Below are positions 9,739 through 34,183 of a DNA stretch of 36,872 nt, piece by piece. Source of the stretch: an uncultured Pseudomonadota bacterium. GTDB lineage: Bacteria > Pseudomonadota > Gammaproteobacteria > Ga0077536. The stretch's first letter is position 1, and each line of letters opens with the position of its first letter. Below the pieces are notes generated by a model. The model had not been told where the DNA came from. It saw nothing but the letters and a program-made list of their open reading frames with translations, and did not search any database. The DNA lies in assembly GCA_902551695.1 (NCBI GenBank), contig CACDEI010000010.1:1-36872 (forward strand), given 5' to 3'. The translations under genes and the position numbers were made by a program.

Positions 9739-9825
<87 letters not shown>

Positions 9826-9885: not shown

Positions 9886-10803
9886 TCACTTATCGTGATT
9901 AGCTTCACCTAAAAACTCTTCAAGACTAGCCGCACGAATCTCCTTTACAATCTCAGCAGCAATCTTAAATGTGCCTTTTTTATCAGTCCTCCTGACAAAG
10001 TAACTCGCCTCAGGATCTGGTGTCGACATAGTTGTAACCTGACCGAAAGAACCGTCCTCGTTTTCATATTTGAATAACTTTTCAAAACCGGAACCATCCG
10101 TACTAAGCTCTTCTCCCTGGACAAAGTGGGATAGTTGAAGGTCTGTTAAAGTTTCAAGGAATTTATCAACTTTACTTTGATCGTAGTTTTCCGCCTCTAA
10201 TCTAAACAGGTTATCTTTCTTCTTAAATGTCATGTCATCTAAAATAATAGCGGAGACGTTTTCTGGAGAGATTCTCAAATAGCCTTTGTCTAGCCAATTA
10301 TCACGCGAAGTATCTAGTTCCCACGACTCTACATCTACTATATATACAGAATCTTCTCCAGCAAGCCTTACGTAACTTTGCCTGATCGTTGCCGGCTTAC
10401 CAAAAAACAAAACAAGAGAAGCGCCGTCTGTTTTCTTGAATCTAACTTTTAGCTTATAGTCTTCTTCGGCGACTTCGAAGCGCTCATGGGAGCCTTCACT
10501 AAAGGATACAGGCAAGCCTCTTTTTAAATCAGTAATTTTTGATAGAAATTCAGCCAGCTTGTACTGATTAACTGGAAAATTTTCTAAATCTGCATCCTGC
10601 CACCGCTGATCTTCGATAAAAAAACTTAGCGAACCATCTTCACCACTCAGTTCTACTGCTTTCACTGTTCGTGCCTCAGTTTCCAGCAGGCTTCGCGTTT
10701 TTTCCTCACGGATACTTCGCTCGGGCTTGGTAAACTCCAAACCTCCCCAAAGGAGAAGTTGGGCCACCAATAAAGTTATTAAAAAAATGCTAAGCCGATT
10801 CAA
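9886..10803 (-). CDS. DUF4340 domain-containing protein (partner of Gld-type ABC transporter)
   Basis: N-terminal TM followed by a repeat-like extracytoplasmic protein (TVKAVELSGEDGSLSFFIEDQRWQ...); 4-bp overlap with the upstream GldFG-like gene. Confidence 0.75.
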   Translation of the reverse strand: MNRLSIFLITLLVAQLLLWGGLEFTKPERSIREEKTRSLLETEARTVKAVELSGEDGSLSFFIEDQRWQDADLENFPVNQYKLAEFLSKITDLKRGLPVSFSEGSHERFEVAEEDYKLKVRFKKTDGASLVLFFGKPATIRQSYVRLAGEDSVYIVDVESWELDTSRDNWLDKGYLRISPENVSAIILDDMTFKKKDNLFRLEAENYDQSKVDKFLETLTDLQLSHFVQGEELSTDGSGFEKLFKYENEDGSFGQVTTMSTPDPEASYFVRRTDKKGTFKIAAEIVKEIRAASLEEFLGEANHDK

Positions 10804-13664: not shown

Positions 13665-13676
13665 AAAAAATAGCCT

Positions 13677-14585
13677 CTAAATTTCATTAAATATGGTTTC
13701 CAAATCACGTTTTTCTTTTGAGAGCTCTGATAAACCGAAACCCGCTTCCACTACCAACCGAGCAACTTCTGAAACAACGGCCTCATTTTTCAAGGTTAGA
13801 GTGTATTGAAAGCCCGTTTCGTTTTTCTCAATGAAGTTAAGCGTCGCAAATTTTGCTAGTGGTCCTACAGCCGTACCAAAATCTTCTAGCTCCTTATCGA
13901 CAGTAACAGTAAATCTTCCTTGAGCACTGAGATCAACGAGTTTTGAGTCTAATGCCTTTCTACCTTCCTTTATCACGATAACCCTATCACAGACTGACTC
14001 CACCTCTTTCAATATATGCGTCGACAAAATCACAGTTGTATTATTATCCGAAAGTCCTTTTATCGTCCTTCGCATTTGCTGAACCTGGACAGGATCCAAA
14101 CCATTTGTAGGTTCATCCAAAATGAGCACCTTAGGCTGATGCAAGATAGCTTGAGCCACACCCACACGTTGCCTAAAACCTTTGGAAAGAGTTCCAATGG
14201 TATGATTTGACTTGGCCGCTAAATCTGTTTTTTTTAGCGCATTTTCTATAGCGAACGGCAAAAGGCTCTCTTGTACACCTCGTAGAATAGCGGTATACCC
14301 AAGATAATCTAAAACCGTCATCTCTTCGTAAAGAACGTTATTTTCGGGGAGATACCCTATTTTAGCCTGTGAGGCCGATATCCGAGACCAGATATTCTGC
14401 CCTTCGAGTTCCACCCACCCCTCAAGAGGACGAAGAAAGCCCGTCAAGATTTTCATAATTGTACTTTTCCCGGCACCGTTGGGTCCAAGTAAACCGACTA
14501 TCTCTCCCGAGTTTATCTCGAATGAGACCTCGTCCACTGCCAGTGTGTCGCCGTAACGGTGTGAGAGAGAACTAACCTTAATCAT
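13677..14585 (-). CDS. ABC transporter ATP-binding protein (GldA-like)
   Basis: Walker A GLLGPNGAGKST, signature LSKGFRQRVGVAQAI, Walker B KVLILDEPTNGLDP. Confidence 0.95.
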   Translation of the reverse strand: MIKVSSLSHRYGDTLAVDEVSFEINSGEIVGLLGPNGAGKSTIMKILTGFLRPLEGWVELEGQNIWSRISASQAKIGYLPENNVLYEEMTVLDYLGYTAILRGVQESLLPFAIENALKKTDLAAKSNHTIGTLSKGFRQRVGVAQAILHQPKVLILDEPTNGLDPVQVQQMRRTIKGLSDNNTTVILSTHILKEVESVCDRVIVIKEGRKALDSKLVDLSAQGRFTVTVDKELEDFGTAVGPLAKFATLNFIEKNETGFQYTLTLKNEAVVSEVARLVVEAGFGLSELSKEKRDLETIFNEI

Positions 14586-15308: not shown

Positions 15309-16442
15309 ATGCCGGAAAAAGGTGTTTTTATAGAAAAAGTAGCTAATAAAAGATCCTTACGCGATTTTATAGGGGTTCCATGGAACGTTTATGGTGAGAC
15401 AGATAATTGGGTGCCTCCTCTAAAGATTGAACGTCAAATGGCTTTATCACCTTCGCAAGGAGTATTTCAACACCTGAGTTGGTCAGGATGGGTGGCCTAT
15501 GAAAATGGGGTCCCTGTTGGAAGAATATCCGCACAAATAGATCAATCTCACCTGTCGAAACGAGGAGACAAAACTGGCTTTTTCGGTTTTCTAGAGGCAG
15601 TGAATAAACAGAGTATTTTCAGCGAGCTGTTCGAACGAGCAGAAACTTGGCTAAAAGAGAGAGGGATTTCCCAAGTCATGGGGCCCTTTAGTCTTAATAT
15701 TAACCAAGAGGTCGGCTTGCTAGTTGATGGCTTTGATACAGATCCCTATTTTATGATGCCAAATGGTCTACATTATTACGCCTCCCACCTAGAGAACCTC
15801 GCCTACAAGAAAGAAATGGATTTATACGCGTATATGATTAAGGCAAGTTTTCAACCACCTAAGGTGATGTGCAAATTGATAGGAAGCATGCCTAAAAGCA
15901 TGACAATCCGCTCGATCAATAAAAAAGATCTCACAAATGAACTAGAAATAATCAGAAATATTTTCAATGATGCTTGGAGTGAAAATTGGGGCTTTATACC
16001 CTTCGGGAAAACTGAATTTCAAACAATTGGCAGAGAAATGTTGATGCTCATACCAGATAGTTTTATACAGATCGCAAGTATAGAAGGCGAACCGGCGGCT
16101 TTTATAGTTCTGCTCCCTAACGTTAACGAAGCCGTGAAAGATCTTAACGGCAAACTTTGGCCAACCGGTTGGATAAAATTACTTTACCGATTAAAAATAA
16201 CCTACCCAAAAAGCGCCAGAATACCTTTAATGGGAGTAAGAAAAAAGTACCATGACACCAAGCTGGGACCGGGTTTAGCTTTGTCCGTCGTGAACGCTTT
16301 GAGGAAGCCAGCCACCTTAAATTTGATAGACGATGTTGAAATGTCATGGATTCTAGAAAATAACAGCGCCATGAGCAACATAATCAAAATTCTAGGCGGC
16401 TATCGATCCAAGACGTATCGCGTCTATAAAAAGAATCTATAA
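15309..16442 (+). CDS. GNAT-fold acyltransferase, candidate bacterial ceramide synthase (YghO/bCerS-like)
   Basis: VMGPFSLNINQEVGLLVDGFDTDPYFMMPNGLHYYASHLENLAYKKEMDLYAYM resembles the YghO/CCNA_01212-type family. Located in the same cluster as Spt, ACP, CerR-like and acyl ligase genes. Confidence 0.75.
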   Translation: MPEKGVFIEKVANKRSLRDFIGVPWNVYGETDNWVPPLKIERQMALSPSQGVFQHLSWSGWVAYENGVPVGRISAQIDQSHLSKRGDKTGFFGFLEAVNKQSIFSELFERAETWLKERGISQVMGPFSLNINQEVGLLVDGFDTDPYFMMPNGLHYYASHLENLAYKKEMDLYAYMIKASFQPPKVMCKLIGSMPKSMTIRSINKKDLTNELEIIRNIFNDAWSENWGFIPFGKTEFQTIGREMLMLIPDSFIQIASIEGEPAAFIVLLPNVNEAVKDLNGKLWPTGWIKLLYRLKITYPKSARIPLMGVRKKYHDTKLGPGLALSVVNALRKPATLNLIDDVEMSWILENNSAMSNIIKILGGYRSKTYRVYKKNL

Positions 16443-16463
16443 AGAGTCGAGGACAAGCACGGA

Positions 16464-17249
16464 ATGGAAAACTTATCGGTCGTTGTCCTCGCGGGAGAAA
16501 GGCCTATCGAACAGGATCACCAAACTACAAACCCCAACATTTTCACTTTGATTGCAGGAGTACCGACAATCGAAAGAGTGATCAGCACCCTTTCATCTAG
16601 CCAAAAATTTTCTCACATTTTAGTTGTTGGGCCCGAAAGGGCAAAAAAAGATGACTCTGAGATTATGAAAAGAATTCTAGCACAAAGAAAAGTAGAGTAT
16701 GTTGAACCTTCGTCCGGACCTAGTGAAAGTGCTGCCAAAGCATTTATGATGTCCGATAATCCAGTACTTCTTACTACAGCCGATCACCCTCTTCTTAACG
16801 TCAGGATAATTGAAAACTTTGTGCAAGCTAGCGTCGAGAATCGGGCTGATTTTATTGTGGGTTTGGTACCCTATGAAGTTATAAAAAATTCATTTCCAGA
16901 GAGTCGAAGAACGAAGCTGCAGTTTAGTGATAAAACTCTTTGTGGAAGCAATCTCTTTTTTCTGAAAAGCAAGAAATGCTCCAACATCTTAAATCTCTGG
17001 ACTAAATTAGAAGCGTTGCGAAAAAGTCCGTGGAAACTTGCGAGCCAATTCGGCCTACTATATCTGATAAGGTATAAACTTGGGATGCTCACTACTCAAG
17101 ACGCATTTAATGTTTTGAGTAGACAAACGGATTGCAGGGCAAGCTATGTTATAATAGACCAACCAAGAGCTGCCATCGATGTAGATTCATGGGAAGACCT
17201 ATCTTTGGCAGAGCGAATTATCGGAGCAGATTCAGAAAGCAATGATTAA
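16464..17249 (+). CDS. MobA-like nucleotidyltransferase family protein
   Basis: SVVVLAGERPIEQDH, PTIERVISTL, VLLTTADHPLLN: NTP-transferase-like fold with a variant N-terminal glycine motif. Confidence 0.75.
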   Translation: MENLSVVVLAGERPIEQDHQTTNPNIFTLIAGVPTIERVISTLSSSQKFSHILVVGPERAKKDDSEIMKRILAQRKVEYVEPSSGPSESAAKAFMMSDNPVLLTTADHPLLNVRIIENFVQASVENRADFIVGLVPYEVIKNSFPESRRTKLQFSDKTLCGSNLFFLKSKKCSNILNLWTKLEALRKSPWKLASQFGLLYLIRYKLGMLTTQDAFNVLSRQTDCRASYVIIDQPRAAIDVDSWEDLSLAERIIGADSESND

Positions 17250-17988
17250 ACCATTTTTGAGAAGCCTAATTCACTCTGGTGGAAAAAAGCTATTGCGAGC
17301 GGTTGGTGCATTTCAAGCACGACATTCTAGTGTAAAAACAACCCCATTTTTACCTAACAATTCTTTTTCATGTACTAATCTGTTGGAAGAAAGTTGGGAG
17401 GACATTCGTGAGGAATTAGATTCAGTTTGGGAGAGCCCAGAAGACATTCCTTCCTTCCATCAAATCAGCCCCGATCAAGCGAGAATTTCAAAGGGCAACA
17501 ATTGGAAAACATTCGCGTTCTATATATTTAAATCTCCCGTATCAGAAAATTGCAAGAAATGCCCAAAGACAAGTCGAATTCTAGCCAGCATCGATGGTTT
17601 ACAAAATGCTTGGTTTTCCATTCTGGCACCCGGCTATAGAATACCCCCCCATAGGGGACCCACGAAAGCTCTAGTAAGATGCCATTTAGGACTTCAGATA
17701 CCTGATGCTTCGAGGAATTGTTGGATAAGAGTAGGCAACCAAAAACAGTACTGGTCGGAAGGTAAGTGCATGCTATTCGACGACACCTACGAGCATGAAG
17801 TAGAAAATGGTACTGATGAGTATCGAGCAGTACTTTTCATAGACTTAGACAGGCCAATGGATAAAATCGGAACTATTTTTAATAAGGCACTCCTATCAAT
17901 AGTGAAGGCCAGTCATTACGTCAAAGATCCTCTAGCGAACCTAGCCAAATGGAATAAAATGCTAAATAGAAGACAGAGAGAAAAATAG
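17242..17988 (+). CDS. Aspartyl/asparaginyl beta-hydroxylase family dioxygenase (LpxO-like)
   Basis: ILAPGYRIPPHRGPTKALVRCHLGLQIP ... CMLFDDTYEHEVENGTDEYRAVLFIDLDRPM (metal ligand His, Arg for 2-oxoglutarate); 8-bp overlap with the upstream gene. Confidence 0.88.
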   Translation: MIKPFLRSLIHSGGKKLLRAVGAFQARHSSVKTTPFLPNNSFSCTNLLEESWEDIREELDSVWESPEDIPSFHQISPDQARISKGNNWKTFAFYIFKSPVSENCKKCPKTSRILASIDGLQNAWFSILAPGYRIPPHRGPTKALVRCHLGLQIPDASRNCWIRVGNQKQYWSEGKCMLFDDTYEHEVENGTDEYRAVLFIDLDRPMDKIGTIFNKALLSIVKASHYVKDPLANLAKWNKMLNRRQREK

Positions 17989-18054
17989 TTATGATCTGCA
18001 GCAGCAAGATGACATGTTATCCTTAACAACTCAACGTAAAACCGTACAGAAAAA

Positions 18055-18795
18055 ATGAAAGCCATAATTTTAAGCGCCGGGCAAGGCAAGCGACTACTCC
18101 CCTTAACAAAGGACACCCCAAAAGCCGCGTTAAAGATTGGCACTCAGTCTCTGTTAGGCTGGCAACTACAGGAAATAAGTAAAACTAGCATTGAGGAAGT
18201 AGTTGTAATAACTGGATTCGGCGCAGATAAAATCGAAGACATAGTAGAAAAAAGTTCCTTCCATGGGGTAAGAACATTCTTCAATCCCTTTTATCAAAAT
18301 TGTGACAATCTAGGAACCTGTTGGGTTGCCAGGGGGGAAATGACCCGCCCTTTCGTCATTATCAATGGCGACACTATCTTTCAAGCTGGAGTTCTCAAGA
18401 AGCTTTTAGAGGACGAATCGAAATGCCCAATAACTATTGCATGCGACCAAAAACCTTCATACGACAGCGATGATATGAAAATCATAGAGAGAGAGGGAGA
18501 GATCCAAAGGGTCAGTAAAACGCTTCCCACCAACGAGGTAACCGGCGAATCCATTGGAATGATACGATTTAACTCAGTTGGGGCGAAGATATTTACTGAA
18601 CAACTAGAAACCATAATGAGGAAAAATAGTGGTCTTGGGAAATGGTACCTCTCGGCAATTGACTCACTCGCCGGCAATGGAACGGTTAGTTCTTGCTTTG
18701 TAGGCGATTTTAGCTGGTGTGAAGTGGACGACAAGGCTGACTTAGTCGCGGCAACTCAAAGCGTAAAACAATGGAACTTGGAAGCATTAAAATGA
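18055..18795 (+). CDS. LicC/phosphocholine-cytidylyltransferase-like or sugar/polyol-phosphate nucleotidyltransferase
   Basis: AIILSAGQGKRLLPLTKDTPKAALKIG signature; DNLGTCWVARGEM; FVIINGDTIF; WCEVDDKADL. Confidence 0.85.
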   Translation: MKAIILSAGQGKRLLPLTKDTPKAALKIGTQSLLGWQLQEISKTSIEEVVVITGFGADKIEDIVEKSSFHGVRTFFNPFYQNCDNLGTCWVARGEMTRPFVIINGDTIFQAGVLKKLLEDESKCPITIACDQKPSYDSDDMKIIEREGEIQRVSKTLPTNEVTGESIGMIRFNSVGAKIFTEQLETIMRKNSGLGKWYLSAIDSLAGNGTVSSCFVGDFSWCEVDDKADLVAATQSVKQWNLEALK

Positions 18796-19223
18796 ACTCT
18801 ACTATCACCAACTTCGGATATCCGGTAAATATTATTGAAGAATATACTAACTGGGTTGTAATGCTCAGGCCGGTACAATTAACTCTGGGGAGTCTGATAT
18901 TAGCTTGCAAGGAAGACGTCAAATCCTTTAGTGCACTCTCGAACTCATCCCAAAGAGAGTTATCAAAAGTGGTACTAGACATTGAGACAACGTTAAAATT
19001 TTGTTTCGACTATAGCAAGATAAACTATTTAATGTTGATGATGGTTGACCCTCACGTTCATTTCCATGTTTTTCCAAGATATGACGGGCAGCGCGTATTT
19101 GCTGGAACAATTTTCGAAGACTCTGATTGGCCCGGCCCTCCAGAAGTTTTGAGAAAGACAGAAATAAAACACGAGCTCTTCATAACTTTAAAAGATGAAA
19201 TTGCTAAGAACTGGGGTTCATAA
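18792..19223 (+). CDS. HIT family protein
   Basis: Histidine-triad motif HVHFHVFPRY. ATG at 18792 overlaps the upstream stop (ATGA). Confidence 0.85.
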   Translation: MNSTITNFGYPVNIIEEYTNWVVMLRPVQLTLGSLILACKEDVKSFSALSNSSQRELSKVVLDIETTLKFCFDYSKINYLMLMMVDPHVHFHVFPRYDGQRVFAGTIFEDSDWPGPPEVLRKTEIKHELFITLKDEIAKNWGS

Positions 19224-19240
19224 ACAAGTCTTTTGCACAT

Positions 19241-19783
19241 CTATTTTTTTGAGTGAAATTTCACCCTCCCCTCCCCGCTCGAACTAAGTTTTCCACTCTC
19301 ATATGAATAGACTAAAGAAGGGCCTGCAAAATGCTGCGAATCAGTTGTTATATAGGCATCTCCGATTGCGAATATCCTATTACTTAAAAAATCAAACTTA
19401 ACTGTTTTTCCAACAGCCTTCAGAGAATCATTTTCGCTCACATTCGTACTTTGTATGGTTGCAAGATTGCCGTCTACGATAATCACATCGGGACTGCTTA
19501 ACTGACCGCTGATTTTCATTTTCTCGCCAGTTATTTTCCAATCCACGCTTTCGAATACAACATCACCCTCGAGAGAGAGGGTTTGCGCGTCAAGCAGTTT
19601 GTATCCACTTTTGGCCTTTATCTTCACCACCTCATCTCCTTTGATTTCTGCAAATATCGAGTTATCTTCTCCAACTTCCATGGATAGTAAAGGCGGACTT
19701 AAAAAGCAAAAAATAAAGCAAAAAATAAGGTTTTTATGCTCGTCCCAAAACAGATAAAATGTAGTTGTTAGTTTCATTGTCAT
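19241..19783 (-). CDS. LptA/OstA-like periplasmic beta-jellyroll protein
   Basis: Hydrophobic N-terminus followed by repeated short beta-strands typical of OstA (LSLEGDVVFESVDWKITGEKMKISG... AVGKTVKFDFLSNRIFAIGDAYITTDSQHFAGPSLVYSYESGKLSSSGEGRVKF). Divergent from lptF. Confidence 0.72.
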   Translation of the reverse strand: MTMKLTTTFYLFWDEHKNLIFCFIFCFLSPPLLSMEVGEDNSIFAEIKGDEVVKIKAKSGYKLLDAQTLSLEGDVVFESVDWKITGEKMKISGQLSSPDVIIVDGNLATIQSTNVSENDSLKAVGKTVKFDFLSNRIFAIGDAYITTDSQHFAGPSLVYSYESGKLSSSGEGRVKFHSKK

Positions 19784-19801
19784 TTTAATTAAAGTACACC
19801 A

Positions 19802-20851
19802 ATGCTCATTGACCGCTATATTATTAAAGAAATTCTACTTAGCTTTTTTGTCACATTTTGTGTTCTAGCTATGATCTTCTTAATGTACAGCTTAACAATC
19901 TTTCTCGGAGAAGCGGTTGACGGTTCGCTATCCGGCAAGGAAATTATCGTGCTCACTCTTTTAAAAACGCTAATTGCATTCGGTGTTCTACTCCCACTAT
20001 CCTACTTTTTGAGTACTGTCATCGCATTTGGCAGGTTAAACCTTAACAGTGAACTTATCGCAATAAAAGTAAGCGGGACCAGTTCCAAGAGAATTACTGG
20101 CAACATTCTAATAGGCTGCGTACTGATCGGTGTATTATCAGCGGGCGCCTCTCTGTTTTGTCGCCCTTGGGCCTACCAAGAAATTTATACACTTAAAGAT
20201 GAAATAGCCAGTAAATGGGAATTTCAAAAGGTCAAGTCGAAACGCTTTTATCTCTCAGAGAACGAGGAACAGATAATCTACTTGGGTAAAAATGACTTTT
20301 CATCTGGGAAGCTAGAGGAAGTGTTCATAAAGAACCAACAGGAAGATGGGTTCGAAATCATAACCGCTCCGATTGGAACTATAAAATCTTTCATCACCCC
20401 CAAAACTCATCAACTTTCTCTTGAAGGCGCAGAGATATACAAAATCAGCTCTGAAGATAAGTTTTTTGTGCAGTTGGAAAATCTAACCCTTCAAATAAAC
20501 GCCTTTAAGACTATCGAACAAAATCAACGGGCCAAGAAGAAACCAAACATTATACTGGCCAGTTCTACAAACCCTGTAGAGAAAGCGGAACTCCAATGGA
20601 GGCTCTCCGCTCCAATATCCTGCTTCATCCTTACACTGACAGCATTGCCCTTAATTTCGATAAGCCCAAGACAAAGTAGGCTCGCAAAAATTCCAATTGC
20701 TATTGCTATTTATGCGACATATTACATCTTTCTAGGATTCTCTCGCACTTTGGTCGAACAGCAAGTTTGGCCACATCTTTGGTTTGGCCCGATAATATTC
20801 CTATCCGTTCTATTAATTTTTTTAAGGCTCAAAAGGATCAGAGAAAATTGA
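19802..20851 (+). CDS. LptF/LptG family (YjgP/YjgQ) permease, LptF position
   Basis: MLIDRYIIKEILLSFFVTFCVLAMIFLMYSL N-terminus; RPWAYQEIYTLKDEI; C-terminal WRLSAPISCFILTLTALPLISISPRQSR. Confidence 0.92.
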   Translation: MLIDRYIIKEILLSFFVTFCVLAMIFLMYSLTIFLGEAVDGSLSGKEIIVLTLLKTLIAFGVLLPLSYFLSTVIAFGRLNLNSELIAIKVSGTSSKRITGNILIGCVLIGVLSAGASLFCRPWAYQEIYTLKDEIASKWEFQKVKSKRFYLSENEEQIIYLGKNDFSSGKLEEVFIKNQQEDGFEIITAPIGTIKSFITPKTHQLSLEGAEIYKISSEDKFFVQLENLTLQINAFKTIEQNQRAKKKPNIILASSTNPVEKAELQWRLSAPISCFILTLTALPLISISPRQSRLAKIPIAIAIYATYYIFLGFSRTLVEQQVWPHLWFGPIIFLSVLLIFLRLKRIREN

Positions 20852-21912
20852 ATTTGCTTATATTAAAATACATAGCTCGACTTTTTTTTTGGAACTGCTT
20901 ACTCGTAGCTTTTGGTCTTATGTCCCTATTTTCTTTTTTAGACCTCCTAGAAACTTTGGATGATGTGGGCAAGGGCGACTTCACTCTAATTCATTCAATA
21001 CAAGTTGTTCTTCTAGGCTCTGGTTCTCGACTAGTAGAACTCCTACCAGTAACTGTCACTCTGTGTTCCTTGCTCACAATTGGAGGGCTAGCAAATAATA
21101 AAGAACTAGTAATATTTCGAGCTGTCGGCGTATCAAAGAACTTATTAACTGCTCTTTTGGCCGCTCTAGGATTGCTGCTTTCTGTTGTTAGCATCGTCAT
21201 GTTGGAACTGCTTATTCCCAAATTGGAAAAAGCGGCTCACGAGCTTTCCACACTTAAAATCGAGAAAACTACGGTGCAGTCTGACGAACTCTGGACTCGG
21301 CAGGGTCTACAGACACTGAGGATTGGAAACCTAGAGTCTCGCCATGTGCCTAGGGAGATTGAAATTTATGAAACTGACTCCACTGGCTCTTTGGTGCGAT
21401 TTGTTGAAGCCAGTAAGGCATATTTTCAAGATGATGGAACTTGGCTTCTCTTCGACATAAAAGAAACCACCTTTCGAGACGACCAAGTAAAAGAGAGCAT
21501 AATAGAGACCCGGGTCTGGGACAGCTTTTTAACCAGAGAACAATTTGGGCGATTAGTATCGCCCCCGGCGACCTTGTCCATTACCGGCCTATTAAAACAC
21601 CTCAACCAAAATAAAATACTAGCAGTTGACTCCTCTGAATACTCCTCTCTTCTGTGGAAAAAAATCAGTTTGCCATTAACTTTAATGGCGATGTCTATTC
21701 TGAGTGTGCCTCTAGCAGGCGCCTCAATCAAAAATCGATCAAACGGCTTTTTGGCTGTGATGGGAGGCGTGATTGGAATATTATTTTATTTAATCGAACA
21801 AACGGCATCAAATCTCGACCAGCTACTTGATCTATCGCCAGCCCTTACTTCACTCACCCCTGCACTTATAATCATCGCAATTACCATACTCTTAAATCGA
21901 CACTCTACCTGA
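20848..21912 (+). CDS. LptF/LptG family permease, LptG position
   Basis: LLILKYIARLFFWNCLLV...LFSFLDLLETLDDVGKGDF, ELLPVTVTLCSLLTIGGLANNKELVIFRAVGVS, SLPLTLMAMSILSVPLAG. Start assigned to TTG (20848) overlapping the upstream TGA. Confidence 0.92.
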   Translation: MNLLILKYIARLFFWNCLLVAFGLMSLFSFLDLLETLDDVGKGDFTLIHSIQVVLLGSGSRLVELLPVTVTLCSLLTIGGLANNKELVIFRAVGVSKNLLTALLAALGLLLSVVSIVMLELLIPKLEKAAHELSTLKIEKTTVQSDELWTRQGLQTLRIGNLESRHVPREIEIYETDSTGSLVRFVEASKAYFQDDGTWLLFDIKETTFRDDQVKESIIETRVWDSFLTREQFGRLVSPPATLSITGLLKHLNQNKILAVDSSEYSSLLWKKISLPLTLMAMSILSVPLAGASIKNRSNGFLAVMGGVIGILFYLIEQTASNLDQLLDLSPALTSLTPALIIIAITILLNRHST

Positions 21913-22779
21913 ATCAGTCACAGCCAAATCGGAGCGCCATTTCATATTTTCTTTTTCATGTAACTCACCACTATCTAAATTCAAAGTTTTTAAGACAGAA
22001 GAAACGTCCACCCCCAATCTATCCTCACTAAAGTCTATAAGTCTGTAGGACGCGGGGCTTACACTCTCCATACTGGATGCAGAAGCCGTGCAAAAAACTT
22101 TTAATTCCGACCCTAAATTATACCGCTTGTTGACGTGTAAGTGGCCATGAAGTATCAGGTTTGTTTTAAGATTCAAGAAGTCCTTCTGCAAAACCTCTAG
22201 ATCTTTCAATTGCTTTCTAACAGATACTCCATCAGTTGTAATTGGATGATGAAGGAGGATGCAAACGAATTTATTTTCAAATTCTCGCATGATTCGTCGT
22301 AGTGTTTCTAATTGTTCAGAATTAATTCTTCCCTCCGCGGACCAAACAGGAGCAGGATACGCGGAAGACAGCCCAATCACTATGACTGAACCCATCCTAA
22401 CAAACCCCGGAAAAGAATTGCCCATTAAATGTAGATATGGACTCCAAAGTTCTCTGACTAATTTAATAGAGGATTTAACATAGATGTCATGGTTTCCTGG
22501 CACTACAAAAACCTTCGCCTTCTTAGATAGGTTGCGTAACCACGCTTTGGCCTCTCTAATTTCGCCTGGCAAGCCCAATTGCACTAAGTCTCCCGTAATA
22601 GTGATTAAATCGGGATCGTCAGATAGAACAGATTCAGTAATCAAATCTAGAACTTCTTTAGTATGGATAAAACGGCGGCGACGGCGCCAGGAAAAATATC
22701 CTAGGCTACGTTTCCCCCAAAATCGAGAAAAACCCAACGGCTCTGTCATATGAAGATCTGTTAAATGGACAAGTCGCAT
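21892..22779 (-). CDS. Calcineurin-like metallophosphoesterase
   Basis: RLVHLTDLHM, DLITITGDLV, VPGNHDIY, LILHGHLHVN. 3' end overlaps the 3' end of the lptG-like gene (convergent). Confidence 0.92.
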   Translation of the reverse strand: MRLVHLTDLHMTEPLGFSRFWGKRSLGYFSWRRRRRFIHTKEVLDLITESVLSDDPDLITITGDLVQLGLPGEIREAKAWLRNLSKKAKVFVVPGNHDIYVKSSIKLVRELWSPYLHLMGNSFPGFVRMGSVIVIGLSSAYPAPVWSAEGRINSEQLETLRRIMREFENKFVCILLHHPITTDGVSVRKQLKDLEVLQKDFLNLKTNLILHGHLHVNKRYNLGSELKVFCTASASSMESVSPASYRLIDFSEDRLGVDVSSVLKTLNLDSGELHEKENMKWRSDLAVTDSGRVSI

Positions 22780-22851
22780 TTATCTTAAAGCCACTCTTGT
22801 AATATAATCATGCCGATGGATTAAGGAGCACCCTATTTGGAAAGGTCCATT

Positions 22852-24042
22852 ATGACACATAAAGTACTCATTTCAGGACAAACTAACCTTTTATTATGGG
22901 GAGTTAGCCCCCGCTCGCGTCTTGAACGTCAATTACGAGCGTTAAATATATACGACATCTCGCTAGATTCCCCAACAATCGCTCACAACAACTACGACAT
23001 AATATTTAACGGAGAATATGTTTTTGACTCCCAATCACTGAAATTTTTCCTAGAGCAAATGAGACCATGTGCCTTGGTATACAACGAGGTTGTTATCGGA
23101 TTGAGTGCAGGAGATAAAAGCGATGCGAATTTATTAAGTTATTTGGGACAAAATATCTCACAGTTGCCCCAATCAGTTAAAAAGATCAATACTTCTGATT
23201 TACTCACTTACAATGATCACCTAAGAAGATCAGAACCGCCTCTGGTAATGCCCATCTCAGCAGACAATTTGAAAATAATTGAAGACCGTTTGTATGGTAA
23301 CTCTTATAAAGGCATAACAGACTTCGTCACAAAATGGATTTGGCCCAGGCCTGCAAAAAAGGTGGTAAGAATTTTTGCAAACTTTCAGATTACACCTAAT
23401 ATGGTTACTCTGGTAAGCCTGATTCTGGTGGTCATTAGCTCTCTTCTGTTTTTGAATGGACATTTTATTTTTGGTTTATTACTTGGATGGATTATGACTT
23501 TTCTAGATACCGTTGACGGAAAGCTAGCCAGAGTGACCGTTACAAGTAGCCGCATTGGTCATATACTCGATCACGGAATGGACATCATTCATCCTCCAAT
23601 CTGGTATGCTTGCTGGGCAAGTGGACTCCTTTTTAATTCAAAAATAACGTCTGAGGCAGCGGATCTAATTACCTGGTGGATAGTGGGTGGTTATATTCTT
23701 GGGAGGATTATAGAGGGTTTATTCCATGCTTTGGGAAGTTGTAGTATCTTTGCGTGGAAACCATTTGACGCAATCTGCAGGTTATTTACGGCACGACGAA
23801 ATCCTTGTCTGATACTGCTGTCTGTATTTACTTTTGCAGGTTTACCCCATATTGGATTATTTGCTGTATGTGTCTGGACCCTGTTCAGCTCTGCTTTGAT
23901 GGCCCTTCGCTTTTTACAGGCGATTTTTGTAAGATTGAGCACTGGACCACTGAACTCTTGGCTGAAAAACGAAAAAGAGGCTATGGAGCATAATCCACGT
24001 TTATACAAAGCATTTTCTAGTACGCGAAAAGCTTATGAGTGA
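22852..24042 (+). CDS. CDP-alcohol phosphatidyltransferase with degenerate nucleotidyltransferase-like N-terminal domain
   Basis: Perfect CDP-AP motif DTVDGKLARVTVTSSRIGHILDHGMD (DxxDGxxARx8GxxxDxxxD) at 23506..23583. An alternative TTG start at 22837 is possible (GGAG 8 nt upstream). Confidence 0.9.
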   Translation: MTHKVLISGQTNLLLWGVSPRSRLERQLRALNIYDISLDSPTIAHNNYDIIFNGEYVFDSQSLKFFLEQMRPCALVYNEVVIGLSAGDKSDANLLSYLGQNISQLPQSVKKINTSDLLTYNDHLRRSEPPLVMPISADNLKIIEDRLYGNSYKGITDFVTKWIWPRPAKKVVRIFANFQITPNMVTLVSLILVVISSLLFLNGHFIFGLLLGWIMTFLDTVDGKLARVTVTSSRIGHILDHGMDIIHPPIWYACWASGLLFNSKITSEAADLITWWIVGGYILGRIIEGLFHALGSCSIFAWKPFDAICRLFTARRNPCLILLSVFTFAGLPHIGLFAVCVWTLFSSALMALRFLQAIFVRLSTGPLNSWLKNEKEAMEHNPRLYKAFSSTRKAYE

Positions 24043-24913
24043 AAAAAACACCGCTGCGAATGATGATAGCCCCTTAACTTTCGTTGAAATCTTCAAGGAA
24101 AAGTATGGGAAGGAATTGCGAGCGGTGATTCTTTATGGTTCTTGGATCCGAGGACGGCGGGATACAGTAATCGACTTTTATGTAGTTCTAGACTCATATA
24201 AGCCCTTGAATTCGAGGCTAGAGGCTAGTTTAAATCACTTGTTAGCTCCTAATGTTTACAATATGACTGTCCTACAGGGGGAGGAAACAATAGCCACCAA
24301 ATATGCCACGGTGTCAGCGGAAGTTTTTGAAAAAAGTATTTGCCATGATTTCCATCCCTACTTTTGGGCTCGCTTCGCTCAACCAAGTGAAATCTTATAT
24401 GCGAGAAACGAACACATTCGCACTGAATTAGCTGAGCTATTCAATATCGCTACCAAAAGACTAATTACCAAGGTTCTACCTCTACTGCCCAAAGCCTTCT
24501 CAATAAATGAACTATGGGAGAAAGCTTTTGAACTAACCTACAGATGCGAATTACGTAGCGAATCGGAAAATACTCCGAAAATACTAGCGGAGAACATGCA
24601 TCAAATATCAAACTTCTTAGCAAAAGGTTGTGGTCTAGAGTTTTCCGATAATGTAATTTATCGAGCGGGGAATGATTCCAGCCGATCCACCGAAATCCTC
24701 TGGATTTTTAGAACATTGGTGGGTAAATCATTAAGTGCGCTTCGACTTTTTAAAGCCCTCTTCACCTTTGAAAAGCCACTTGACTATCTTGTTTGGAAAA
24801 TAGAGAGACACACCGGAATCAGAGAGACACCTACTGACCTGCAACGTAAGTATCCGATACTATTTTCATGGACTTTGCTGTGGAAAATTTTTAAACGCGG
24901 CGGGTTTCGTTGA
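24035..24913 (+). CDS. Pol-beta-like nucleotidyltransferase-fold protein
   Basis: AVILYGSWIRGRRDTVIDFYVVLD resembles the GS...DxD motif, but with V at one of the two Asp positions. 8-bp overlap with the upstream gene. Confidence 0.6.
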   Translation: MSEKNTAANDDSPLTFVEIFKEKYGKELRAVILYGSWIRGRRDTVIDFYVVLDSYKPLNSRLEASLNHLLAPNVYNMTVLQGEETIATKYATVSAEVFEKSICHDFHPYFWARFAQPSEILYARNEHIRTELAELFNIATKRLITKVLPLLPKAFSINELWEKAFELTYRCELRSESENTPKILAENMHQISNFLAKGCGLEFSDNVIYRAGNDSSRSTEILWIFRTLVGKSLSALRLFKALFTFEKPLDYLVWKIERHTGIRETPTDLQRKYPILFSWTLLWKIFKRGGFR

Positions 24914-26241
24914 AAAAATTTTTCAACGAGCCCAATAGCTCCTTCACCAGGGTTTTAAAAAACTTATTCATACTACTGAGTGGCAGAGCGACAGCGGGAA
25001 TCTTGTTTTTCATTTCGATAATTATCTCCGCAAGACTTCTGGAACCAAGCGACCTTGGATTGATAGTCATGCTTCACGCTTATGTTATGACCATACGTGG
25101 CGTTATAACCGTGAAGCCCTTCGAAGCCATCGTGAAATACGGAACAATCGCCGCTGATAATGCTGATTTTGACCGTCTAGGCAAGTTACTTGTCTCGTGC
25201 ATGAAACTTGACGTCCTTACAGCCCTTCTAGGTTTTACCATCGCCTCATTTGGGATAAGTATATTGATCGATCTTCAATATCTCGAACCAAAAGCGGAAA
25301 AGATTGGTTGGATTTACTGCCTTTTACTCCTTATAGCAAATGATGGAACGGCTGTCGGCTCACTCAGAATATGGAACAAGTTCAATTACATAAGCTATTG
25401 TCTAATTGGAGGAGCACTCTCTCGGCTATTAGGTATAGTCACTTTATATATCTACGAGTCCCTAACCCTAACAAACGTTGCGTATGTTTGGTTTTTTTCC
25501 TCATGCGTTCAATATTTGCTACTACAAGCTACAGGCTGGTTTCTGATTTTAGATACGCTACCTAAACCGCTTCGCCACTACCTAACGCCTTTTAATTTAT
25601 GCGAACTAGAGAACCACGGAATCTGGCGTTTTTTGCATCTGGTTTACTGGCAAGGTGTGCTGGATACTATACCCAAACGAGGGGGAATTTTGTTAAGCGG
25701 CTTTTTCTTAGGACCTGAGATTGCAGCATTATACCGAATTACAAACGACCTGGCCGGGGTGATCGCCAAACCCGCGCTTTTGGTGAGGCAGGTAATTTTC
25801 CCGGACCTTGCCCGTCTAAAAAATGAAAGTTCCAAAAACCTACCGTTAACATTAAAAGTTTCGCTTATAGTAAGTCTACCTGCTGCATTACTGGCGATTG
25901 CGTCATTTTGGTTTGGAGAGGATCTCTTATCTTTCACTGTCGGAGAAGACTATACGATAGCCAGTGTTTTACTTACTATCTTGATCCTTTCAGCCACCTT
26001 GGAACTTGCATCATCTCCCCTGAGACCATTTTTATACGTTGCAGATTCCGCTGGAATATCGCTTGCAATTCAGATCTTTGGGACCATAGCTTACATTGGA
26101 ATATTTTATGTAGGAGTTGAAAGCCTCAACTTGCTTACACCTGGAATAGCATCCCTCACCTTAAATATCAGCACTTTGGTTCTGGCAGCTACGGCAATCT
26201 TCATGTCTCGCATAAAGCGGGAGAATCGAGCCTCATCTTAA
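24910..26241 (+). CDS. Polysaccharide/lipid flippase (Wzx-like, MVF/MATE superfamily)
   Basis: About 12-TM profile; LFILLSGRATAGILFFISIIISARLLEPSDLGLIVM N-terminal flippase pattern. TTG start overlapping the upstream TGA. Confidence 0.88.
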   Translation: MKKFFNEPNSSFTRVLKNLFILLSGRATAGILFFISIIISARLLEPSDLGLIVMLHAYVMTIRGVITVKPFEAIVKYGTIAADNADFDRLGKLLVSCMKLDVLTALLGFTIASFGISILIDLQYLEPKAEKIGWIYCLLLLIANDGTAVGSLRIWNKFNYISYCLIGGALSRLLGIVTLYIYESLTLTNVAYVWFFSSCVQYLLLQATGWFLILDTLPKPLRHYLTPFNLCELENHGIWRFLHLVYWQGVLDTIPKRGGILLSGFFLGPEIAALYRITNDLAGVIAKPALLVRQVIFPDLARLKNESSKNLPLTLKVSLIVSLPAALLAIASFWFGEDLLSFTVGEDYTIASVLLTILILSATLELASSPLRPFLYVADSAGISLAIQIFGTIAYIGIFYVGVESLNLLTPGIASLTLNISTLVLAATAIFMSRIKRENRASS

Positions 26242-26246
26242 AAGAC

Positions 26247-27446
26247 TTAGGCTGCTTTTCCTAGACCTAGACTCTCTGCAACTCTAGCAAACGCATCTCC
26301 TATAGAGCCTATTTGTGCTCGACTGTGAGCGGCCGTAACACTACATCTGATCACACTTCCCCCGTCGGGTGCCGCAGGGGGGAGAATTAAATTGGTGTAG
26401 ACTCCCAGCTCTAAAAGCTTACTCCAGAAACTATAGCCTAAATTATCATCACTGAAAGAGGCTCCGACAATTGGACTAATCACCTCCCCAATATTCAGCC
26501 CAACAGCGGAGAGTCGTCCATGGAGATCATTAGCATTCTCCCAGGCTTTTTTTCTCAAGTGAGTTCCCTGCTTCATAAGCTGAAGCGCTGCTCGAGTAGT
26601 CGCTACTACTGATGGAGACGGCGAGGCTGTAAAAATATAAGGTCGACTTGAGTACTTGAAAATACCAGCCTCCTTGTGGTTACTAACACAAAAACCACCT
26701 ATTGAACCTAAGCTTTTACTGAAAGTACCGACTATAAAGTCAGTAGAATCGATTACGCCCCTCTCAAAGGCCAGACCTGCACCAGTTTCCCCAAACAACC
26801 CCAGTGAATGGGCCTCATCCACAAGAATATAGCATCCATATCTGTTCTTTAACTCTATGAATTCTTCAAGTGGAGCACAATCTCCTCTTATACTATACAA
26901 ACCCTCAACAATCACTAACGTTGACTTAGCTCGCTCACCAAGCCGCTTGAGCCGCTTTTCTAAACTTTCTGGATCATTATGCTTGAAACGCAACACATCT
27001 GCTCCTGACAGACGACAACCGTCATACAAACTCGCATGAGCTTCAGAATCTACAAGCGCCACATCATCCTTACCAAGCAAGGCAACGAGAGTGCCTAAAT
27101 TGGCTGAATAACCTGTGCTAAACACCATCGCGTGATTCATCTTAAATAACTCAGCTATCTCGGTTTCTAAACACAAGTGACCTCTATAGCTGCCGTTAGC
27201 CATTCTGGAACCGGTCGTGCCAGTCCCCTCTACTTCAAGGGCTTGATGCCCTGCAGAAATACACTCAGGAGAAAAAGTAAGGCCCAGGTAATTATTGGTT
27301 CCCGCTAAAATAACTTTATTATTAGATACAATTGCCTCGGTTGGAGATAGTATTTTATCTATTATAATTTGCGTAGGATTAATGGGTAGATTGTCCAGCG
27401 TTTCTTTTTTTATCGCAGCATCATTCAAATTATCTAAAAGTCCCAA
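26247..27446 (-). CDS. spt: Serine palmitoyltransferase-like alpha-oxoamine synthase
   Basis: GTNNYLGLTFSPECI, GTGTTGSRMANGSYRGHLCLETEIAELF, VDSEAHASLYDGCRLSGADV, VDEAHSLGLFGETGAGL, PLP lysine GTFSKSLGSIGGF. Next to a dedicated ACP, acyl ligase and epimerase. Confidence 0.88.
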   Translation of the reverse strand: MGLLDNLNDAAIKKETLDNLPINPTQIIIDKILSPTEAIVSNNKVILAGTNNYLGLTFSPECISAGHQALEVEGTGTTGSRMANGSYRGHLCLETEIAELFKMNHAMVFSTGYSANLGTLVALLGKDDVALVDSEAHASLYDGCRLSGADVLRFKHNDPESLEKRLKRLGERAKSTLVIVEGLYSIRGDCAPLEEFIELKNRYGCYILVDEAHSLGLFGETGAGLAFERGVIDSTDFIVGTFSKSLGSIGGFCVSNHKEAGIFKYSSRPYIFTASPSPSVVATTRAALQLMKQGTHLRKKAWENANDLHGRLSAVGLNIGEVISPIVGASFSDDNLGYSFWSKLLELGVYTNLILPPAAPDGGSVIRCSVTAAHSRAQIGSIGDAFARVAESLGLGKAA

Positions 27447-27461
27447 TGAAGCACTCCCTAA

Positions 27462-27701
27462 TTATCGTAAATTTTTTTCTACAACAGCACTCAAATCCGC
27501 TACGGTAACAACATCGGAAAGCTCGCTTTCGCCTATCACCAATTCAAATGCGTCCTCTATTTCACATAGCATCTCAATAATTTGAATGGATTCAAGACCC
27601 AAGTCCTTCACAAGTGCCGTGTCGTGCTCAACCTTGCGGCTGGGATCGGCAAATTGCTGCACCACTTCCTTAACCCGTTCCAATAACTCGTTCTCTTTCA
27701 T
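27462..27701 (-). CDS. Acyl carrier protein (dedicated, sphingolipid type)
   Basis: DLGLESIQIIEMLCEIEDAFELVI phosphopantetheine site (Ser codon at 27588..27590); ATG at 27701. Confidence 0.88.
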   Translation of the reverse strand: MKENELLERVKEVVQQFADPSRKVEHDTALVKDLGLESIQIIEMLCEIEDAFELVIGESELSDVVTVADLSAVVEKNLR

Positions 27702-27722
27702 AAAAGCAATCAACCTCTTGTG

Positions 27723-28655
27723 CTAGGTGGAGTCCTTCACTCCTTCCTGTAGATCTTTCGACGGCTTCCAGGTGGTACGAGATACAATATCCGAGTTGTC
27801 ACAAACCCACCTATCATGTCGGATCTCGTTTACCTTACCAGATGTCAACATGGGAGCATATCGAAATATTCTCGCCCCCAACATATTGATTCTAGATAAT
27901 AACCGAAGCACAAACAGTGGGATGGGTAAAAGTACCCAAGGTTTCCGGCCTCGGGAGCTTTGCCAAATTTCATCCCATGTATAGCCGCCCACTTTACCAT
28001 CATGACAAGTAAAAGTCTGTCCTTTACAGGCATCAAAATTATTACTTAAAGCGGTTATAGCTCGAACACAATCATCGACGTGGATAAAGGTTAGTCTTTG
28101 TCCTAACGGTCCTAAAGAAAGGCCTATTCCCAGTTTCATCAGTTTTAACAATGGCAAAAGCTCTTTGTCCCCACGTCCATAAACCGCGGTAGGCCTCAAG
28201 ATAATCCAATCCAATCCCGTTGAGTTTCTAAGCACACTTTCTCCCCGTCTTTTTGACTCAGAGTAGGCGGAAAGATGAGGCTGAGAGGCTGCCAGGGACG
28301 AGACATATATGACTCGGGGAGTTTTCATAACATCAAGTGCCACATTCACTACATTTTCTAAGGAACTTACGTTAGCCTCCTCGAAATCTTGTAGTTTCAA
28401 CCCTTTGACCGTGCCGGCACAATAGATTATCAGATCTGCATTTGTTAAGGCTTCCCGCACCACATCGTTTTTTTCTAGTGGAGTTTCGAGGATTGCGAGG
28501 TTGCTTTCCAAACCCGAACTCTTAGATCTATTGGCGTGCGGTCTTTGAAGCGACGTAATGGAGTGCCCCTCTCTTATCAATTCAGAGATTAGGTGCGTCC
28601 CTATGAATCCAGTGCCGCCCGTAAGGACGACGTTCTTCTTATCTTTTATCGGAAT
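27723..28655 (-). CDS. NAD-dependent epimerase/dehydratase (SDR), CerR-like
   Basis: Translation from 28655 gives IPIKDKKNVVLTGGTGFIGTHLISELIREGHS, an intact Rossmann GxxGxxG. Downstream: VIYVSSLAASQP, YSESKRRGE, GLDWIILRPTAVYGRGDKE. The start codon is unclear: no ATG/GTG/TTG upstream of the Rossmann motif. Confidence 0.85.
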   Translation of the reverse strand: MPIKDKKNVVLTGGTGFIGTHLISELIREGHSITSLQRPHANRSKSSGLESNLAILETPLEKNDVVREALTNADLIIYCAGTVKGLKLQDFEEANVSSLENVVNVALDVMKTPRVIYVSSLAASQPHLSAYSESKRRGESVLRNSTGLDWIILRPTAVYGRGDKELLPLLKLMKLGIGLSLGPLGQRLTFIHVDDCVRAITALSNNFDACKGQTFTCHDGKVGGYTWDEIWQSSRGRKPWVLLPIPLFVLRLLSRINMLGARIFRYAPMLTSGKVNEIRHDRWVCDNSDIVSRTTWKPSKDLQEGVKDST

Positions 28656-30395
28656 CTACTCCGACGCCGCTGATGCCACCTTTTGACCTTGAGTCCGCGC
28701 TAGGAAATCCTGTTTTGCTTTGGAGCGGGACAGTTTCCCGGATGATGTTCTAGGCAGTGTTTTAGGAGGAACCAAATCGATCTGACAAGAAACACCAAAA
28801 TGTAAAGAAACCAGTTCACAGAGATTTTTAATCAATTCGTTACGCTTAGCTGGATTACTCTCTCGAGACTCTACAACCATCACTACCCTATCGGTACCGT
28901 GATCATCCGAGAAAGAAAAAGCGGAGACATTACCAAAGCGTACACCTGGCAGGCTTTCAGCAAGATACTCTAAATCATGCGGCCAGATATTACGTCCATT
29001 CACAATTATAACGTCCTTACGACGTGCAGTGACCACCACATTATCGCCGTTTCTAAAACCAATATCTCCAGTATCCAACCACCCATCCGCACTAAGAACC
29101 TCATTGGTCGCATCTTTGTTATGAAAATAACCAGTCATCACGCTTTCGCCTCTTAAGCAAATTCGACCACACTGGAAATCATCTAGGTCATTTCCCTCAT
29201 CGTCACGAATAGCCAACTCGAAACTCGGGAGAATCTTACCGCAATCAACAAATGTAAGAATGTCCGATCCTTGGGTAGATTCTCTTATAATTACATCACC
29301 ACTGGTTGAGATCGACTGTTTATCTACGTTCATCACAGACATACCATCACCCAACTTAGCAAAACTAATAGCCAAGGCACATTCCGCCATTCCGTAACAC
29401 GGTACAAAAGAAGCAGGATTAAATTTTGCATCTTTTAAAACGTGGGCGAAACGCCGTAGCGGTTCCGGATGAATTCTCTCAGCACCGACACACGCAACCC
29501 TCCAGGAGCTAAGATCGTATTTATCTTGGTCTGTAAGCCGCAAACGTTTTGCGCATAAGGCATACCCAAATGGGGGGCTGGAGGAAATTGTGCCTCGATT
29601 CTCTGATATCAATTTCAACCAAAGCCTCGGCCTCATAGCAAAAGTTTTCGGGCTTAGATAATCTGCCGACAATTGATTGGCAAGCGGGAGAAGAACAAAT
29701 CCCACTAATCCCATGTCATGATAAAAAGGAAGCCAGGATACCATCCTATCATTTCCACCAATTTTTAGTCCGTGAACTGAAATATCTCTCAGATTGGACA
29801 TGACACATTTTTGAGTTATCTCAACGCCTCGAGGGAATCGGGTGCTCCCTGAGGTGTACTGTAGGTACGCGATGTCACCTGATTCTAAAGGCTTCAAAGG
29901 TTCCTCACTGGAAGGCAATATCTCGAACTCCTCTGGAGTTCCACATTTGATTGAATCTATTCGCTCAGCCGCTTGCCTCAAAAAGGCAATGTGAGAATCA
30001 GGCGCAATAGCCACATCAGCTCCACAGCTATCCAGCATCCTTTCTAGTTGCTCGACGTAAGCAGCTCTTGCTCCCACTTGTAATCCAGCTGGCAAAGCAA
30101 CTGGAATCAAACCAGCATATTGACAAGCAAAAAAGAATCTATGGAACATCGGATGAGTTTCTGCAACGAGCGCCACTCTGGCTCCTCGTTTCAACTTAAG
30201 ACTCATTAACTGGGAAGCAAGATATTTTGACTGCTCTTTTAATTCGGCGTAAGTCAAAGTGACATCAAGCTCACCTCTTCCATTATAAAAATTACATCCA
30301 GTCTCACCTGCTGCTGCATACTCTAATGCTTCAACTAATGTCCCGAATGTTGCGTTGATTAAGCTCAAAGACTTATTGAGTTTAGTAGGTTTCAT
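28656..30395 (-). CDS. Fatty acyl-AMP ligase / acyl-ACP synthetase (AasR-like)
   Basis: AMP-binding motifs YLQYTSGSTRFPRGVEIT, CYGMAECALAISF, WLDTGDIGF, RRKDVIIVNGRNIWPHDLE, TLPRTSSGKLSRSKAK. Confidence 0.92.
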   Translation of the reverse strand: MKPTKLNKSLSLINATFGTLVEALEYAAAGETGCNFYNGRGELDVTLTYAELKEQSKYLASQLMSLKLKRGARVALVAETHPMFHRFFFACQYAGLIPVALPAGLQVGARAAYVEQLERMLDSCGADVAIAPDSHIAFLRQAAERIDSIKCGTPEEFEILPSSEEPLKPLESGDIAYLQYTSGSTRFPRGVEITQKCVMSNLRDISVHGLKIGGNDRMVSWLPFYHDMGLVGFVLLPLANQLSADYLSPKTFAMRPRLWLKLISENRGTISSSPPFGYALCAKRLRLTDQDKYDLSSWRVACVGAERIHPEPLRRFAHVLKDAKFNPASFVPCYGMAECALAISFAKLGDGMSVMNVDKQSISTSGDVIIRESTQGSDILTFVDCGKILPSFELAIRDDEGNDLDDFQCGRICLRGESVMTGYFHNKDATNEVLSADGWLDTGDIGFRNGDNVVVTARRKDVIIVNGRNIWPHDLEYLAESLPGVRFGNVSAFSFSDDHGTDRVVMVVESRESNPAKRNELIKNLCELVSLHFGVSCQIDLVPPKTLPRTSSGKLSRSKAKQDFLARTQGQKVASAASE

Positions 30396-33802: not shown

Positions 33803-34183
33803 ATGACGAACAAAAGAACGGGCTTTAAACGCCTAAGAAAGGCATTCGGCTATTCCGTAAAAGGGATAGAACAGGCTTGGCACAATGAAGAGGCTTTTCG
33901 ACTAGAAACCATTCTTTGTATTTGCCTATTCCCTCTGAGCTTTTTCGTAGGCAACAATATAACTGAATACATTCTTCTAATCGGAACTCTAGTCTTGCTA
34001 GTGATAACCGAGCTCTTTAATTCAGCCATCGAAGCGCTAACCGATCGTGTTGGATTAGATAACCATGAACTATCTGGACGGGCAAAAGATATAGCATCTG
34101 CTACAGTATTTATAGCATTAATCTATTTAGTATCGGTCTGGTTATCGCTCGCATGGAATAATATATTATCTTCAAATTTTTAA
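33803..34183 (+). CDS. dgkA: Diacylglycerol kinase DgkA
   Basis: GYSVKGIEQAWHNEEAFRLETILC; ELFNSAIEALTDRVGLDNHELSGRAKDIASATVF. Confidence 0.94.
   Translation: MTNKRTGFKRLRKAFGYSVKGIEQAWHNEEAFRLETILCICLFPLSFFVGNNITEYILLIGTLVLLVITELFNSAIEALTDRVGLDNHELSGRAKDIASATVFIALIYLVSVWLSLAWNNILSSNF

Follow-up and report, generated by a model that had tools for sequence, protein, structure and literature searches.

Two questions about bacterial sphingolipids have been stated to be open: by what route these lipids get to the outer membrane, and how the protein CpgC acts (PMC11087976, PMC12275187, PMC11324152). Both are raised by a 16-gene block (positions 15309 to 30395) in a 36,872-nucleotide stretch of DNA from an uncultured gammaproteobacterium (GenBank contig CACDEI010000010.1). 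This stretch, hereafter the window, makes up the whole of contig G000:C10 in a 1.43-Mb metagenome-assembled genome (MAG; 72% complete). The block is probably a resident chromosomal locus that makes, tailors, and exports an anionic phosphoceramide, homologous to the CPG/CPG2 cluster of Caulobacter. Its kind is known (Caulobacter CC_1152-1168; Escherichia coli yghO-spt), and the block was confirmed as a well-conserved variant of it; the surprising parts are an absent ceramide kinase and a dedicated second LptA.

Ceramide genes and their setting

A preliminary description of the sequence had listed an Spt-like synthase, an acyl carrier protein (ACP), a short-chain dehydrogenase/reductase (SDR), an acyl-AMP ligase, a YghO/bCerS-like GNAT protein, and accessory genes, and every gene that it named is a real, full-length open reading frame (ORF) in the block. 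The serine palmitoyltransferase (SPT; 26247 to 27446, − strand) scored 543 bits against NF047599 (cut-off, 500) and 297 bits as BioF (cut-off, 426), is 52% identical to E. coli spt, and was placed by the tree inside the SPT clade (SH-aLRT 99), not with BioF/Kbl, the grouping that the preliminary description had named as contrary to its proposal. The GNAT N-acyltransferase (15309 to 16442, +; Pfam GNAT), a predicted ceramide synthase adding the N-acyl chain, bore out the expected kinship with bCerS/YghO, being 48% identical to E. coli YghO over 373 residues (full length). It is 40% identical to the GNAT gene product of a Caulobacteraceae-type sphingolipid locus (such comparison loci came from genomes G412 and G436, their family label guessed from SPT score and gene content). 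A GNAT gene is present in many of the SPT loci read; a PDB sequence search with the protein gave nothing significant.

The three remaining core genes are an AcpR-like ACP (27462 to 27713, −; PF00550), an AasR-like fatty acyl-AMP ligase predicted to load it (28656 to 30395, −; NF006624, 727.7 bits against a cut-off of 600), and a CerR-like extended SDR (27723 to 28655, −; PF01370), a predicted NAD-binding ceramide reductase. The SDR ORF as listed (27723 to 28580) was too short; its frame extends to 28655 and includes GGTGFIG, with YSESK also in frame. By sequence it is of CerR type, an extended SDR beside spt with NAD-binding and YxxxK motifs, and it is 31 to 33% identical to the Caulobacteraceae-type SDR; Caulobacter CerR is periplasmic (PMC11087976). 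The frame opens immediately behind the ligase stop codon, and neither ATG, GTG, nor TTG precedes the conserved GGTGFIG in it; some relatives likewise show no obvious start there; the start may be ATT, or else the MAG may contain an error. With SPT placed in the SPT clade, a GNAT protein that matches YghO/bCerS, and a full set of five ceramide genes, ceramide biosynthesis by this locus is strongly supported at the sequence level.

The left part of the block reads GNAT-NT1-OlsC-NT2-HIT rightward, LptA2 leftward, and LptF2-LptG2 rightward; the right part reads phosphoesterase leftward, CDP-alcohol phosphotransferase-Tam41-flippase rightward, and ligase-SDR-ACP-SPT leftward. With the ceramide/CPG2 cluster of Caulobacter crescentus (CC_1152 to CC_1168; PMC11324152) it shares the five ceramide genes, domain-equivalents of CC_1161 (CpgC), CC_1159 (CpgA), CC_1158, CC_1153, and CC_1152 (CpgD), a second LptF and LptG, and a flippase. 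Unlike that cluster, it has no CpgB ceramide kinase, carries LptA2 in place of LptC2, and includes an OlsC/LpxO-type hydroxylase and a HIT-like protein; the order of the genes and their place on the chromosome also differ. The E. coli yghO-spt cluster (strain S10) shares YghO, the acyl-AMP ligase, SDR, ACP, spt, and a second lptG-lptF, but has no annotated Tam41-like gene, CDP-alcohol phosphotransferase, or nucleotidyltransferase adjoining and has YtfJ-family, YghS, and YghT genes instead. Within E. coli, spt is found in 4107 of 5426 complete genomes, and the laboratory strain BL21 is among the carriers of the ceramide genes (PMC9386255). The closest named relatives by SPT identity are the MAGs MED768 (67%) and UBA4457 (62%).

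A second set of LptF, LptG, and LptA

The block encodes three proteins of the Lpt lipopolysaccharide (LPS) machine. LptF2 (19802 to 20851, +) and LptG2 (20767 to 21912, +; true start probably further in than listed) passed the permease models (TIGR04407, 254.8 bits against 230; TIGR04408, 250.9 bits against 240). LptA2 (19241 to 19783, −; PF03968, 31 bits), a second LptA-like periplasmic bridge protein, is real but divergent, lying over the Pfam cut-off and under that of NCBIfam TIGR03002 (41.7 against 71.7 bits). The canonical machine has the LptF, LptG, and LptA families in common with the locus; unlike it, the LptF and LptG of the locus are linked to SPT, fall in separate clades, and come with no second LptC. 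No LptC was found in the window, and family genomes have a single LptC where one was found, bar one split gene.

In the tree, the SPT-linked LptF sequences fall into a single clade of 33 rows (SH-aLRT 100), as do the SPT-linked LptG sequences (33 rows; SH-aLRT 99), in both cases apart from the canonical copies, and these clades span gammaproteobacteria (including Escherichia whittamii), Nitrospirota, and Calditrichota. Alphaproteobacterial SPT-linked copies branch outside them, in a tree that included no alphaproteobacterial canonical copies, came from a quick search, and has some long branches. An extra LptF/G pair is present in 16/16 family genomes with SPT and 0/8 without (Fisher p = 1.4e-6, uncorrected for shared ancestry). 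With split genes and weak fragments merged by hand, LptF/G genes number four per genome with SPT (three in the incomplete MAG studied here) and two per genome without (one in G002, 72% complete). The extra LptA accompanies 13/13 loci of this architecture and 0/11 other family genomes. The LptF/G phylogeny and the co-occurrence with SPT lend support, from sequence comparison, to a dedicated export branch for the sphingolipid. The idea is not new, a second LptC/F/G set having already been proposed for Caulobacter; the LptF/G clades, the co-occurrence, and LptA2 are additions here.

LpxC is present in the genus, from which we infer that LPS is also made; replacement of LPS by the sphingolipid was rejected on this ground. 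Also rejected was the idea that the LptF/G genes of the locus are the only copies, as relatives with SPT carry further canonical ones. Elsewhere in the MAG, a lone canonical LptG lies beside an apparent pepA (contig C45), and canonical lptF and lptG seem to lie on different contigs in the family.

Predicted head-group genes and the missing kinase

Several genes that could build a head group follow the Caulobacter scheme, for which the genetics have been described (PMC11324152, PMC10331486, PMC12275187). The CpgC-like, Tam41-like protein (24035 to 24913, +), a predicted CTP:phospholipid cytidylyltransferase, exceeded the PF09139 cut-off, keeps the YGS, D, K, and WxRFxQP residues that are invariant among its homologues, and is 31% identical to its counterpart beside spt in a Caulobacteraceae-type locus. 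A PDB sequence search gave nothing significant, whereas a fold search did match: the AlphaFold2 model (pLDDT 85) had as its best Foldseek PDB matches the mitochondrial and bacterial Tam41 CDP-diacylglycerol (CDP-DAG) synthases 7ecd, 6ig2, and 6ig4, over nearly its full length (7ecd: E value, 7e-10; TM-score, about 0.6). It differs from these in having only about 15% identity and TM-scores of only 0.5 to 0.6, and its expected substrate would be ceramide phosphate, not phosphatidate. In agreement with this match, CC_1161/CpgC has been noted in print, on the basis of InterPro, as a possible CDP-DAG synthase (PMC11324152); searching the literature for a link of Tam41 to ceramide, or for a CDP-ceramide cytidylyltransferase, returned nothing relevant. 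The CpgA-like CDP-alcohol phosphotransferase (22837 to 24042, +; PF01066) has an N-terminal extension and the invariant DxxDGxxAR...GxxxDxxxD motif, and its model (pLDDT 86) best matched AF2299 and phosphatidylinositol phosphate (PIP) synthases over its length.

Two nucleotidyltransferases accompany them: NT1 (16464 to 17249, +; PF12804; weak TIGR03552 CofC match), of the MobA/CofC/IspD type, which adjoins the GNAT gene in most loci and is the domain-equivalent of CC_1153, itself described as CofC-like (PMC11324152), and NT2 (18055 to 18795, +; PF00483), of the LicC/IMPCT/CpgD type, with CTP:phosphocholine cytidylyltransferase as its best PDB match (1jyk, 55.6 bits). A calcineurin-like phosphoesterase (21892 to 22779, −; PF00149, 55.6 bits), domain-equivalent of CC_1158, recurs in sphingolipid loci. 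The block appears to hold CpgC-, CpgD-, and CpgA-like proteins, the last two assigned by family and fold.

Tailoring and flipping of the lipid would fall to two other genes, a hydroxylase and a flippase. An OlsC/LpxO-type Fe(II)/2-oxoglutarate hydroxylase (17242 to 17988, +; PF05118, 172 bits) is predicted to 2-hydroxylate the ceramide acyl chain; it belongs to the same superfamily only, being under both equivalog cut-offs (OlsC, 189 against 450 bits; LpxO, 121 against 500 bits). Such hydroxylases recur in sphingolipid loci, including those of unrelated genera (L165, L167, L201, L207, and L140), which suggests repeated recruitment as ceramide hydroxylases. The MAG behind L140 is titled Klebsiella pneumoniae, probably wrongly; the SPT of its locus groups with Nitrosomonadaceae. 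A HIT-family-like protein (18771 to 19223, +) has the motif HVHFHVFPRY, no Pfam match at threshold, and counterparts in several relatives, and a MOP/MATE-superfamily flippase candidate (24910 to 26241, +; weak NF007773 match, 23 bits) is present in other SPT loci.

The preliminary description had called the locus apparently complete, which holds for the five ceramide genes and fails, by the Caulobacter standard, for the ceramide kinase; its gene list left out the Tam41-like, metallophosphoesterase, and HIT proteins and did not remark on the kinase. In Caulobacter, CpgB phosphorylates ceramide first (PMC10331486). No ceramide kinase (CpgB/DAGK_cat) was found in the window, even by an unfiltered profile search, and no DAGK_cat protein in this genome or in the family genomes with this locus type (13/13), several of them >95% complete, so that the missing fraction of the MAG does not explain the absence. 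The domain is also absent from L131 and L132, named relatives that share this locus, and from three other genomes, those behind L136, L152, and L210. It does occur in the three G011/G017/G022-type genomes, whose locus lies elsewhere, and, outside the locus part read, in the genomes behind L133, L135, and L146. In other loci, a DAGK_cat gene stands beside spt, and it often separates the phosphotransferase gene from the Tam41 gene (L130, L171, L185, L188, and L190); in the window the latter two adjoin directly, with an 8-base overlap. CpgC-like and CpgA-like genes are retained in the kinase-less loci. The phosphoesterase was considered as a stand-in for the kinase, the two seeming mutually exclusive, and was rejected because L185 and L190 have both.

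E. coli DgkA phosphorylates ceramide in vitro. A dgkA gene (33803 to 34183) flanks the block and adjoins the locus in relatives whose contig reaches that far, and DgkA is, from the activity of the E. coli enzyme, the first candidate substitute.

In the pathway that we propose, the acyl-AMP ligase would load the dedicated ACP, SPT would condense the acyl-ACP with serine, the YghO-like GNAT protein would add the second acyl chain, and the SDR would reduce the product to (dihydro)ceramide, which the OlsC/LpxO-like oxygenase would 2-hydroxylate on an acyl chain. Ceramide-1-phosphate would then come from an enzyme outside the block, possibly DgkA, and be activated to CDP-ceramide by the Tam41-like CpgC. 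The CpgA-like phosphotransferase, the CpgD-like and CofC-like nucleotidyltransferases, and the phosphoesterase may build a polyol- or glycerate-phosphate head group; the flippase would turn the lipid over; and LptF2-LptG2, with LptB and LptC shared with the LPS machine, would hand it to LptA2 for the outer membrane.

Competing readings and history of the block

Several points weigh against this pathway. The kinase step has no assigned enzyme, given the lack of DAGK_cat in the window and the 13 genomes, and the action of DgkA on ceramide is carried over from the E. coli enzyme, which makes it a candidate only. NT1, NT2, the phosphotransferase, and the phosphoesterase were equated with CC_1153, CC_1152, CC_1159, and CC_1158 by published domain descriptions, and the published cpgD primer of C. 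crescentus matched none of the loci and none of 30 genomes of the presumed family. The head group is not uniform, since neither the CDP-alcohol phosphotransferase nor NT2 is present in the loci of relatives G001 and G003. Tailoring likewise varies within the genus, as G001 has no copy of the phosphotransferase anywhere in its genome and no NT2, HIT, or flippase match in its locus. The product itself is deduced from genes. The earlier proposal that a phospho-head-group ceramide is made and exported is accordingly best taken in parts, with the head group plausible from the Tam41-like protein, the phosphotransferase, and the nucleotidyltransferases, and ceramide formation and export standing as graded above.

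How the lineage would manage without the kinase admits of more than one answer. It is possible, and we hold it tentatively, that a CDP-activated phosphoceramide is made without an LCB5-type kinase, via DgkA or a direct CDP-alcohol route, and is exported by LptF2-LptG2-LptA2 on shared LptB/LptC. A wholly kinase-free, Kennedy-like route, in which NT2 makes a CDP-alcohol, the phosphotransferase moves the phospho-alcohol onto ceramide, and the Tam41-like enzyme has another substrate, seems doubtful. It would fit the lack of a ceramide kinase in locus and genomes, the likeness of NT2 to LicC, and the pairing of NT2 with the phosphotransferase, which are adjacent in G011/G017, both absent from the G001 and G003 loci, and neither found in the part of the MED768 locus examined. 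However, the nearest structures to the phosphotransferase are AF2299 and PIP synthases, several with a CDP-lipid donor, and human choline phosphotransferase is a much weaker match; moreover, loci without NT2 and the phosphotransferase still retain the Tam41-like enzyme, an indication that CDP-ceramide is a core step. Somewhat less probable again is that the assembly of the MAG missed the ceramide kinase gene, or that some unrelated kinase, encoded elsewhere, took its place: 72% completeness leaves room for the former, but the 13 DAGK_cat-free genomes speak against it; an unrelated kinase other than DgkA is conceivable.

Two further readings, on transport and on origin, can be given very little weight. 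That LptF2, LptG2, and LptA2 are the ordinary LPS transporter of the cell, beside sphingolipid genes by chance, would agree with LptF and LptG scores over the NCBIfam equivalog cut-offs and with the single other LptF/G gene in this MAG; yet better-covered relatives with SPT have two further canonical copies elsewhere, the SPT-linked copies form their own clades, and E. coli also carries lptG-lptF adjoining spt. That the block is a recently acquired mobile island is equally hard to credit. In its favor, rnr adjoins imuB without the block (at a distance of 287 bases in G017) in G011, G017, and G022, a related genus with its sphingolipid genes elsewhere, and 23 plasmid records from other taxa carry SPT genes. 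Against it, and largely refuting it, about a dozen relatives, from several genera, carry this set of genes in this order between cupin/rnr and imuB-lexA on the chromosome, which excludes chance; the SPT tree unites these loci in one clade apart from the G011/G017/G022 copies; G+C content is not anomalous; and no integrase or transposase is among the assigned block ORFs. Synteny, SPT grouping, and normal G+C indicate an old and resident block, one that entered or left the rnr|imuB junction as a unit in the past and has been resident since. The earlier suggestion that the block might be transferable in one piece survives in that empty junction and the plasmid-borne SPT genes, and not as a description of the present block.

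Among the plasmid SPT homologues are ones from Rahnella, E. coli, Pseudomonas, and Klebsiella, several of them with an annotated ACP adjoining. To the left of the block lie a cupin gene and an ABC/DUF4340 system, and beyond them rnr and housekeeping genes; to the right lie imuB, imuA, lexA, dgkA, and glnS. The DUF4340/ABC-2/ABC ATPase system (9886 to 14585, −), between rnr and the block, was seen at the same site only in G001 among the family members read. A tRNA-Leu(CAG) (9739 to 9825, +) overlaps the listed 5' end of the opposite-strand rnr ORF, so translation of rnr probably begins further in.

The resident sphingolipid locus proposed here bears on both opening questions. Separate LptF and LptG clades are strictly linked to spt in Escherichia as well as across several phyla, which opens the transporter question to direct tests in a laboratory strain, and a lineage that retains CpgC while naturally lacking the kinase offers a clean genetic contrast for head-group chemistry.

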